From the NCBI RefSeq assembly GCF_023518235.1, contig NZ_CP090423.1, positions 3,799,001 through 3,863,000 on the forward strand: a DNA stretch of 64,000 nt, in the 5' to 3' direction. The position numbers were made by a program, and so were the translations under genes. This DNA is from Stenotrophomonas maltophilia. GTDB taxonomy: Bacteria > Pseudomonadota > Gammaproteobacteria > Xanthomonadales > Xanthomonadaceae. The notes below the pieces were generated by a model that ran no database searches, was not told where the DNA came from, and saw only the letters and a program-made list of their open reading frames with translations. Below, piece after piece: positions 38,747-41,278 of the stretch; positions within the stretch are counted from its first letter, which is position 1, and every line of letters begins with the position of its first letter.

Positions 38747-38828
38747 GCGGTTTCGCGTGCCTGCGCGCCGATAGGCGGTGCGGGTGCGCACATCGCTGAA
38801 CCGCTTCCCCAGTTGCGGATGAAACATT

Positions 38829-38864: not shown

Positions 38865-38945
38865 ATGAACGCAGCCCGCGCCAGCTTTTACTTTTGGTAT
38901 TACTTTCCGAAGCCTCTGGCGGAGGAAGGATTGCGCTCACCCTGA
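38865..38945 (+). CDS. aromatic amino acid leader peptide (attenuator peptide)
   Basis: A 26-codon frame, MNAARAS then FYFWYYF then PKPLAEEGLRSP and a TGA stop. Residues 8-14 are seven successive aromatic residues: three Phe, three Tyr, one Trp. A random 26-codon frame almost never gives this. Downstream sequences form an intrinsic terminator and an alternative pairing, so ribosome stalling at uncharged Phe, Tyr or Trp tRNA should prevent termination and raise DAHP synthase expression. The layout is that of pheL, trpL and hisL attenuators, but reading all three products. Basis: codons are seen, mechanism is inferred. Confidence 0.85.
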   Translation: MNAARASFYFWYYFPKPLAEEGLRSP

Positions 38946-38979
38946 AGAAAGCTTCAGACGCATTCCCGAAAGCCGCCAG
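38916..38979 (+). promoter_or_regulatory. predicted antiterminator pairing
   Basis: CTGGCGG at 38916-38922, inside leader codons 18-20, is the exact complement of CCGCCAG at 38973-38979, the 5' arm of the terminator. A ribosome stalled in the first part of the aromatic run (38886-38903) would leave the first segment free to pair with the second and block the terminator, whereas a ribosome reaching the stop at 38945 covers it. An extra small hairpin CTGAAG-AAAG-CTTCAG lies at 38942-38957 between them. Confidence 0.65.
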
Positions 38980-38998
38980 CGAACCTGGCGGCTTTTTT
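38971..38998 (+). terminator. attenuator terminator before the DAHP synthase gene
   Basis: AGCCGCCAG and CTGGCGGCT, nine perfect base pairs around a five-base CGAAC loop, followed by a T tract, 47 bases before the structural gene. A terminator located between a promoter and the gene it serves is the hallmark of attenuation. Confidence 0.88.
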
Positions 38999-39044
38999 CA
39001 TGCCGCCACGCTGGGGACCCCCAACGTTCCGGAGAACCCCCGCA

Positions 39045-40118
39045 ATGCCCCCGCACACCGACGACCTGCGTATCCGCACCATCGAACCGCTGACACCGCC
39101 CGCCCAGCTGCTGGCGATGCTGCCGTGTGACGATGAAGCTTCCGACACTGTCAGCGCCTCGCGCGCGGCCCTGCACCAGATCCTGCAAGGCCGTGACGAC
39201 CGCCTGGCCGTGGTGGTCGGCCCGTGCTCGATCCACGACCCGAGTGCCGCCATCGAGTACGCCCAGCGCCTGAAGCCATTGCGCGATGCGCTGGCCGGTG
39301 AACTGGAAATCATCATGCGCGTGTACTTCGAGAAGCCGCGCACCACGGTGGGCTGGAAGGGCCTGATCAACGATCCGGACCTGGATGGCAGCTTCAGGAT
39401 CGACAAGGGCCTGCGCATCGCACGTGGCCTGCTGCGCGACATCAACAAGCTCGGCCTGCCGGCCGGTGTCGAATTCCTCGACGTGATCTCGCCGCAGTAC
39501 ATCGCCGATCTGGTGGCATGGGGCGCCATTGGTGCACGCACCACTGAAAGCCAGGTGCACCGCGAACTGGCGTCGGGGCTGTCGTGCCCGGTCGGTTTCA
39601 AGAATGGCACCGACGGCAACGTCAAGATCGCCGCCGATGCCGTGGGTGCTGCTTCGAATCCGCATCACTTCCTGTCGGTCACCAAGCAGGGCGGCACCGC
39701 CATCGTGTCAACCACCGGCAACCCGGATTGCCACGTGATCCTGCGCGGCGGCAAGCAGCCGAACTACGACGCAGCCAGTGTGGCTGATGCCTGTCAGGCG
39801 CTGGCCAAGGCCAAGCTGCCGACACGCCTGATGATCGACGCCAGCCATGCCAACAGCCTGAAGAACCCGGAGAACCAGCCGAAGGTGATCGAGGACATCG
39901 CCGTTCAGTTGGAAGACGGTGAACAGCGCATCGTCGGTGTGATGATCGAGAGCCATCTGGTCGGTGGCCGCCAGGAACTGGTCGAAGGCCAGCCGCTGGT
40001 CTACGGCCAGAGCATCACCGATGGCTGCATCGACTGGGACACCACCGTGACGGTGCTGGAGCGACTGGCTGCGGCCGTGCGCGCCCGTCGCGGAGTGAAG
40101 GTGTCCGAAGCCGCCTGA
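39045..40118 (+). CDS. aroG: 3-deoxy-7-phosphoheptulonate synthase, class I (AroFGH type)
   Basis: DAHP synthase condenses PEP with erythrose-4-phosphate, the committed first step of the shikimate pathway to Phe, Tyr and Trp. The 357-residue length matches E. coli AroF/G/H. Markers seen: VVVGPCSIHDPSAAIEYA, EKPRTTVGWKGLINDP, GARTTESQVHRE and GFKNGTDGNV, with DASHANS near the metal site. The paralogue type (Phe-, Tyr- or Trp-sensitive) cannot be assigned from sequence alone. The start ATG 39045 follows GGAGA; an in-frame ATG at 39000 lies inside the attenuator. Expression is predicted to be controlled by the aromatic leader upstream. Confidence 0.96.
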   Translation: MPPHTDDLRIRTIEPLTPPAQLLAMLPCDDEASDTVSASRAALHQILQGRDDRLAVVVGPCSIHDPSAAIEYAQRLKPLRDALAGELEIIMRVYFEKPRTTVGWKGLINDPDLDGSFRIDKGLRIARGLLRDINKLGLPAGVEFLDVISPQYIADLVAWGAIGARTTESQVHRELASGLSCPVGFKNGTDGNVKIAADAVGAASNPHHFLSVTKQGGTAIVSTTGNPDCHVILRGGKQPNYDAASVADACQALAKAKLPTRLMIDASHANSLKNPENQPKVIEDIAVQLEDGEQRIVGVMIESHLVGGRQELVEGQPLVYGQSITDGCIDWDTTVTVLERLAAAVRARRGVKVSEAA

Positions 40119-40329: not shown

Positions 40330-40947
40330 TCAATGCACTTCGTCGTGATACACGAACTTCGGCATTTCCCAGCGGTAGTGGATCGCCAGCAGGCGCATCG
40401 CGAAGCCGCCGCCCAGGCAGCACAGGATGGCAGTGGCGTCGGCTACGCCCCAGTGCAGCAGCAGGAGATACGCCGCGCCGGTCAGCAGCGCGATGATTGC
40501 GTACAGCTCCTTCTGGAAGATCAGCGGCACCTCGTTGCAGAGGATGTCGCGCAGCACGCCGCCGAACGCACCGGTCAGCATGCCGGCAATCAACACGATG
40601 GGCGTGGCATGGCCCGCCTCACGCGCGATCGAGCAGCCGATCAGGGTGAAGGCGATCAGACCCAGGCCATCGAGCACCAGGAAGGTGCGGCGGAAGTGGT
40701 GCATCCAGCGCGCCACCCAGGTGGCGATCAGCGCCGCGCACACGGTGAAGCCCAGGTACTCGGGATGCTTCACCCAGCCCAGCGGGTAGTGGCCGAGCAG
40801 GATGTCGCGCAGCGAACCGCCGCCGAGGGCGGTGACGCAGGCGATCATGACCACGCCGAAGAGGTCCATGCGGCGGCGGCCGGCGGACAGCGCGCCGGTC
40901 ATGGCTTCGGCGGAAATGGCGATCAGGTAGATGATGGAAAGCAGCAT
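40330..40947 (-). CDS. trimeric intracellular cation channel / UPF0126 family membrane protein (probable glycine-related transporter)
   Basis: A 205-residue inner-membrane protein with about six or seven helices arranged as two similar halves, GGGSLRDILLG and GGVLRDIL being the repeated motif of the family (one in each half). In several bacteria the family is assigned as Gly_transporter/UPF0126 because its genes carry glycine riboswitches; that association is present here. Start ATG 40947 is the first sensible one after the riboswitch, with GGAGCC upstream. Transport direction and substrate remain inference. Confidence 0.88.
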   Translation of the reverse strand: MLLSIIYLIAISAEAMTGALSAGRRRMDLFGVVMIACVTALGGGSLRDILLGHYPLGWVKHPEYLGFTVCAALIATWVARWMHHFRRTFLVLDGLGLIAFTLIGCSIAREAGHATPIVLIAGMLTGAFGGVLRDILCNEVPLIFQKELYAIIALLTGAAYLLLLHWGVADATAILCCLGGGFAMRLLAIHYRWEMPKFVYHDEVH

Positions 40948-41038
40948 GGGGCAGGCTCCGGGCGCGGTGGGGCCGGCCATGCGCGTATACCGCCACTGCC
41001 TGCGCAATGACGTGATGACGATGACCGGTGCCGCTCCC

Positions 41039-41235
41039 GCTGTCCTTTTGCCTGAGAGTTCAGCGGCGTAGGCCGCGTGCCCCTTCGGCGGATCGTCCCG
41101 GGCATGCCCGGTGACCTCTCTCCAGCTCGGCGAGTCGAATGCATGGTTGGTGGGATTCCAGCCCACCGGCCTGAGCGATCATGGGAGCCTGCGCCTTCGG
41201 CGGGCGCCAGCGCGGCGCCTCTCTCCTGCATTCGG
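41039..41235 (-). promoter_or_regulatory. tandem glycine riboswitch
   Basis: On the minus strand two glycine aptamers follow each other. The first (about 41149-41235) shows GGAGAGAGGC, GCCGAAGGCGCAGG and CGCTCAGGC; the second (about 41039-41125) shows GGAGAGAGG, GCCGAAGGGGCA and GAACTCTCAGGC followed by AAAAGGACAG. These GCCGAAGG and CTCAGGC elements are diagnostic of the class. The pair lies upstream of the UPF0126 gene by about 90 bases; the linker of about 25 bases is short as required for cooperative binding. No terminator was seen, so control may act on translation initiation. Confidence 0.93.
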
Positions 41236-41278
41236 GCGCCAGTATATCCGCTGCAGTGCAGCACGGCATAATCCGGCC

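Follow-up and report, generated by a model that had tools for sequence, protein, structure and literature searches.

A probable transcription attenuator with codons for phenylalanine, tyrosine and tryptophan precedes the class I DAHP synthase gene of Stenotrophomonas and its relatives

The class I DAHP synthase gene (aroG) of Stenotrophomonas maltophilia is preceded by an RNA element that is very probably a ribosome-mediated transcription attenuator, in which the supply of the three charged aromatic tRNAs would set readthrough into the gene. The element lies in a stretch of 64,000 nucleotides (the window), and its most likely role is that of an RNA switch turning the gene on when phenylalanine, tyrosine or tryptophan runs short. 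An attenuator is recognized by a short ORF with codons for the end products of the pathway, an intrinsic terminator between this ORF and the gene, and an antiterminator that excludes the terminator. We found an ORF of this kind upstream of the gene (with all three codons in 215/216 leaders; its translation is predicted), an intrinsic terminator in the expected place, and a mutually exclusive antiterminator whose pairing is supported by covariation (Table 1). These sequence features support the attenuator interpretation put forward in the original prediction.

Table 1. Features of the leader region and the adjoining gene, in window coordinates
Feature	Position	Strand	Basis
Dyad-like element GTTGC-N4-GAAAC upstream of the -35, possible operator	38812..38825	+	Conservation
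Predicted extended -10 promoter: TTTGCA, 17-nt spacer ending TGC, TATCAA	38828..38856	+	Conserved spacing, 216 leaders
Leader peptide ORF MNAARASFYFWYYFPKPLAEEGLRSP, 26 codons, probably leaderless	ATG 38865 to TGA 38943-38945	+	Sequence
Candidate protector (segment 1), potential partner 38916-38921	38879..38884	+	No covariation support
Seven aromatic control codons, F Y F W Y Y F	38886..38906	+	Phe, Tyr and Trp in 215/216 leaders
Segment 2, antiterminator 5' strand (core 38916-38922; upper helices 38928-38930, 38932-38935)	38916..38935	+	Inside leader ORF
Apical hairpin of antiterminator, stop codon TGA in 5' arm	38942..38957	+	Swap test
Segment 3, antiterminator 3' strand; 38968-38979 doubles as terminator 5' arm	38959..38979	+	Fold, covariation
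Intrinsic terminator: 38968-38979 paired with 38985-38996 (12 pairs), CGAAC loop, T tract ending at 38998	38968..38998	+	Predicted fold
Class I DAHP synthase (aroFGH family), SD-like GGAG 39031-39034	39045..40118	+	TIGR00034 E 3.2e-161

The 26-codon frame with seven consecutive aromatic codons (TTT TAC TTT TGG TAT TAC TTT) is present as originally predicted. Of the 770 ORFs of 10-45 amino acids in the window, it was the only one with more than five aromatic residues in eight; because no other ORF matched it, and because the element is kept in relatives, we regard the run as more than a product of chance. As a bare 12-base DNA pattern, aromatic-aromatic-Trp-aromatic matched 11 times in the genome versus 12 times for a reversed control, and the rarity of the run as a DNA word was dropped as evidence. 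The product of the downstream gene scored 535.8 bits with TIGR00034 (cut-off 173.2), which places it in class I and bears out the expected aroG-type enzyme; with the AroG equivalog model it scored 559.5 bits, slightly below the cut-off of 568.

Class I AroG was matched in 90 of the 91 genus genomes and in 99 of 297 genomes sampled from the family; the other 198 family genomes gave no match. Usable upstream regions came from 158 genomes (79 belonging to the genus and 79 not); outside this sample were 11 genus genomes with AroG, the fragmented G348 and G366, and L145 (3 bases). All 158 regions contain, shortly upstream of aroG, an ORF with at least four aromatics in eight residues, and 155 match the terminator pattern, with variant terminators visible by eye in L105, L135 and L138. 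Loss of the aromatic run or the terminator in close relatives had been named as evidence that would speak against an attenuator; both were kept across the relatives fetched from genus, family and order.

A covariance model built from 47 diverse leaders (R1) gave the leader as its sole hit in the window (155 bits), with one further match at E 0.14, and hit 99 of 297 family genomes. When R1 hits and AroG matches were compared by eye, 98 of the 99 family genomes positive for class I AroG had the leader, the exception being G357, where the contig breaks off at the gene; a hit was also recorded in one of the 198 genomes without AroG. This weak hit (G237, 8.7e-4) has neither an aromatic ORF nor AroG and was rejected as a false positive. 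Family hits are expected from the way the model was built; what is informative is that the leader is missing from 197 of the 198 AroG-negative genomes. Across the order, R1 hit 142 of 398 genomes, 70 of them in two other families (f12 and f3), and an aromatic leader adjoins AroG in all 59 of these 70 that were fetched. Across the class, 5 of 369 genomes were hit, one of them outside the order; its family yielded hits in 28 of 150 genomes, and all 20 that were inspected carry an aromatic leader together with AroG. Read by eye, 19 of these 20 leaders contain all three aromatics, and one (L381) is without Trp. A peptide-level DNA pattern searched in named genomes returned 97 stretches, from genera that include Xanthomonas, Pseudoxanthomonas, Stenotrophomonas, Rhodanobacter, Dyella and Fulvimonas; AroG adjoins 94 of them, two (L282 and L325) end too early, and one (L331) is apparently a chance match. 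Leader and AroG also occur together in L275 (Kaistia dalseonensis), L284 (a Phenylobacterium MAG) and L320 (an Eremiobacteraeota MAG), which belong to other classes or phyla; either the unit was transferred horizontally as a whole, or these records are contaminated.

The composition of the leaders was compared in a set of 216 (156 from the family, 59 from f12 and f3, and 1 from the family outside the order), from which L105 and L138, both missed by the T-tract rule and both with all three aromatics, were left out. Codons for Phe, Tyr and Trp all lie upstream of segment 2 in 215 of the 216, the exception (L142) being without Trp. Tyr and Phe are both present in every leader and swap positions between lineages; 203 leaders have a single Trp codon, 12 have two and 1 has none. 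The order of residues changes by lineage (FYFWYYF, FYWYYF, SYFWYYF, FWFWYYRD, FFYWYAF, YYFWFYGY) and the aromatic character is constant. Phe is encoded by TTT in 372 of 441 cases (84%; TTC 69) in 179 distinct leaders, versus 41 of 453 (9%; TTC 412) in 34 window ORFs chosen on length alone, and the TTT:TTC ratio is 1:111 in AroG genes (those recognised by script among 39 loci). Tyr is written as TAT in 215 of 530 cases in leaders, compared to 37 of 212 in window ORFs. Rare codons at the control positions fit a translation-speed sensor; selection for unstructured RNA across the aromatic stretch would yield the same bias.

These patterns bear on how many amino acids are sensed. The attenuator might effectively respond to one or two of them, for example to Phe via the rare TTT or to Trp via the single TGG, with the other codons passive. 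The strong TTT bias and the lone Trp codon in most leaders point in this direction, as does the Phe-Tyr-Phe leader of Corynebacterium glutamicum aroR, which is reported in a review to respond to Phe limitation only (PMC11802643); since Tyr is without effect there despite its codon, the presence of a codon need not mean a response. Passive codons, however, would be expected to drift, and Trp, for which no synonymous codon exists, is retained in 215/216 leaders and, by eye, in 19/20 outside the order, while Tyr and Phe change places by lineage and yet both persist in all 216. We consider sensing of fewer than three amino acids unlikely, though far from negligible, and continue with a sensor of all three.

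The terminator folds at -20.3 kcal/mol (z -5.94), and 99.6% of cells were paired over 11 pairs in 47 sequences. The original prediction had rightly placed a terminator with a T tract before the gene, but gave it nine pairs, against the 12 of the predicted fold. From segment 2 to segment 3 the RNA folds into one long hairpin (-27.3 kcal/mol, z -2.93): above the core come an internal loop rich in purines, then short upper helices, and at the apex a stem containing the stop codon. The core (CTGGCGG 38916-38922 with CCGCCAG 38973-38979) is the perfect 7-bp pairing that had been pointed out, and it is exact; the antiterminator is much longer and takes in the stop codon. Individual loci depart from this layout in several ways. 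L135 carries a triple compensatory change (segments 2, 3 and 4 read CCGGCGG, CCGCCGG and CCGGCGG), L033 and L077 have, by eye, extra hairpin-like sequence and a T run between attenuator and aroG, and L105, a natural variant, has its leader stop codon within segment 2 and a break in the T tract of the terminator.

Alignment of relatives had been suggested as a check for co-varying pairing, and the antiterminator does covary. In an alignment of 47 diverse leaders (A1), 78.8% of antiterminator cells were paired; slid controls gave 28.7-42.1% and shuffles 76.4% (0/500 as high). Both sides had changed at 9 pairs (4/500 shuffles as high). In a second alignment (A2: 77 model-aligned rows, leaning towards structure, with five weak antisense false rows of E 0.003-0.009 included in the counts), 73.3% of cells were paired versus 24.2-44.9% in slid controls, and 119 cells were doubly changed versus a shuffle mean of 55.3. 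Helix 2 is not part of the terminator; both its pairs (38928-38929 with 38966-38967) were doubly changed in A1, at 97.9% pairing. Against the antiterminator counts that further pair types in A1 showed no excess over shuffles (248/500) and that helices 3 and 4 were paired in 68.1 and 65.4% of A1 cells (54-68% over both alignments). The apical hairpin was paired in 65.4% of cells in A1 and 54.3% in A2, and the second core pair was unpaired in 23 of 47 A1 sequences.

A swap test, which needs no column alignment, was run on 53 representatives with 5000 permutations. Native antiterminator halves paired at -23.8 kcal/mol versus -20.9 kcal/mol for swapped halves, and 0/5000 permutations were as good, these figures, like those for covariation, being approximate because the sequences are related. 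The mid helix alone and the stop-codon hairpin alone each gave 0/5000; counting against the antiterminator, 31% of single swaps were more stable than the native halves. The covariation and swap tests support pairings 2:3 and 3:4 and give no support to 1:2. The protector helix 1:2 is predicted in the S. maltophilia sequence itself at -14.3 kcal/mol, and native segment 1 paired with segment 2 at -11.0 kcal/mol versus -9.5 for shuffles (lower in 36/53). Its pair counts equalled those of shuffles, swapped partners reached -11.5 kcal/mol, and 4832/5000 permutations were as good or better, and we rejected it. A protector or pause hairpin is usual in attenuators of the classical type, not obligatory, and covariation gave no support for one at 1:2.

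The C-terminal part of the peptide, PxPLAEEGxRSP, is common to many leaders, as might be expected of a nascent-chain arrest peptide, in which peptide sequence and a small molecule, not uncharged tRNA, would stop the ribosome. TnaC, which arrests together with a free amino acid, is a precedent. The aromatic residues, however, are permuted between lineages, and RNA pairing accounts for the conserved C-terminal codons: the PLAEEG end is kept because segment 2 encodes it, with GGCGG showing little or no base variation among the 47 diverse leaders and its flanks changing with segment 3. An arrest peptide is, on this evidence, very improbable, and codon reading by the ribosome is the account we retain.

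Promoter position was surveyed by taking the best TATCAAT match within 14 positions upstream of the start codon in the 216 leaders. TG precedes this match in 205 of them, the hexamer ends 7-9 nt upstream of the start codon in 205, and the match is poor in 15. An SD-like 4-mer was found between -16 and -5 of the leader start in none of the 216 leaders, and at 98 of 149 aroG starts. Given the promoter spacing and the missing Shine-Dalgarno sequence, the transcript would begin no more than about 2 nt from the leader AUG, which suggests that the leader mRNA is leaderless. A strict consensus scan of the region listed neither promoter nor terminator; we judge these misses to be limits of the scan, since the terminator stem uses part of the T tract and TATCAA is without the required last T. 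The promoter miss, along with the 11 occurrences of short aromatic DNA words in the genome, would suit a different reading, in which the ORF arose by chance and the hairpins only end transcription, either for a transcript from upstream or prematurely and without regulation. It is scarcely credible, as ORF, frame, promoter spacing, antiterminator and terminator are all kept across four families, upstream of AroG in the inspected leaders.

The dyad-like element upstream of the promoter may represent a second control layer acting via some regulator. GTTGCN3TGNAAC is present in 130 of 215 upstream regions, and GTTGC-N4-GAAAC has 12 matches at 10 places in the S. maltophilia genome versus 3 for a reversed control pattern. 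An aromatic regulon sharing the element was not seen at the five inspected of the nine other places; all five overlap a stop-to-stop frame of at least 110 codons, which has little meaning in GC-rich DNA. One copy (L394) lies about 120 nt upstream of a frame that looks gltB-like by eye.

These parts suggest a mechanism for the proposed attenuator. Transcription would start at or beside the leader AUG, allowing a ribosome to load straight onto the 5' end. If Phe-, Tyr- or Trp-tRNA were short, the ribosome would halt on an aromatic codon and leave segment 2 free, since the gap from the end of the last aromatic codon to the GGCGG of segment 2 (median 11 nt, range -2 to 20) is close to the distance between the A site and the front edge of the ribosome. 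Free segment 2 would then pair with segment 3 as the long antiterminator, the terminator would be blocked, and aroG would be transcribed. Conversely, with all three tRNAs plentiful, the ribosome would reach the stop codon inside the apical hairpin and occupy the upper antiterminator (covering roughly 38925-38956, judging from known footprints); segment 3 would pair with segment 4 and transcription would end. On and off states could thus arise without a protector helix. We infer that the element acts as an OR gate, shortage of each of Phe, Tyr and Trp raising readthrough. On balance, and with modest confidence, we lean towards an old, widespread and unnamed family of RNA regulators, in which a leaderless peptide would integrate the charging of tRNA-Phe, tRNA-Tyr and tRNA-Trp where the shikimate pathway begins and the off state would come from the ribosome opening the stop-codon hairpin, with no protector involved.

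The leader precedes the class I gene; to the original prediction it has to be added that the genome also encodes a class II DAHP synthase (C1:2461218-2462522, L162). No matching leader was found there, the 500 bases searched containing no short ORF with at least three aromatics in eight residues. A second PF00793 protein in the genome is possibly KdsA. A search for the TyrR domain gave no match in this genome (E. coli, as a control, was positive), which counts in favour of the attenuator; a Trp-repressor family protein is encoded. E. coli, according to a regulon survey, has three DAHP synthase isozymes under TyrR and TrpR. Elsewhere in the window, tandem glycine riboswitch aptamers (RF00504, 47.1 and 40.1 bits) at 41030-41238 on the minus strand precede a minus-strand ORF queried as 40330-41013, which has a weak NF007874 match.

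If the model holds, a genome without a TyrR match would combine its response to three end products in a single RNA element, and a testable model of aromatic control would be at hand for Xanthomonas, Stenotrophomonas, Rhodanobacter and Dyella. The element would also be an RNA family unmatched by Rfam 15 and a natural system for studying the reading of several amino acids by one ribosome over a short stretch of codons, and attenuation from a leaderless start.

No Rfam 15 family reached its gathering threshold at the leader, either in the window or in 13 loci, and the leader scored 22.9 bits with Phe_leader (RF01859; cut-off 55), which leaves it outside that family; Trp_leader is the Rfam counterpart for trp attenuators. 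We found no description of the element in Xanthomonadales in the open-access literature, which omits most subscription papers. The main text of two attenuator surveys contains no aroG, aroF or DAHP, 'Xanthomonad' is absent from the main text of a survey of proteobacterial TyrR and TrpR regulons, and a term search of a Xanthomonas sRNA screen gave nothing.

An aromatic attenuator at a DAHP synthase gene is not without precedent, C. glutamicum aroR being one. The aroR attenuator before aroF was reportedly described by Neshat et al. in 2014, and attenuators of C. glutamicum are leaderless. According to a review, aroR is a Phe-Tyr-Phe leader peptide before the DAHP synthase gene aroF, Phe limitation raises transcription, and Tyr availability is without effect on it (PMC11802643). 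Thus described, aroR resembles the Stenotrophomonas leader in placing an aromatic-codon leader peptide before a DAHP synthase gene, and differs in being actinobacterial, in a described motif without Trp, and in the missing effect of Tyr. Another paper proposes the uORFC-13-1 motif before aroF, with 24 unique sequences from Acholeplasma and unknown organisms (PMC8632094). It likewise combines a short uORF and an apparent terminator upstream of a DAHP synthase gene; it differs in having its own ribosome binding site and a U run coding for at least one Phe, Trp and Tyr going unmentioned in that text (PMC8632094). Putative attenuators at tyrA operons are also among the nearest cases that we found in the literature. 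For the start-codon transcript start predicted here, two papers (PMC7298713, PMC8079986) report that the S. meliloti trpL leader mRNA and most described leader peptide mRNAs of S. lividans begin at the start codon; in these sources each concerns one amino acid and other genes. Attenuation at DAHP synthase genes therefore has precedents, of which the Stenotrophomonas element is a variant that we did not find described. Like the E. coli pheA (pheL) and trp (trpL) attenuators, it would use the ribosome to choose between antiterminator and terminator. Unlike them, it is without a supported protector helix and has its stop codon within the antiterminator; and whereas pheL and trpL each read one amino acid, the Stenotrophomonas leader carries codons for three.
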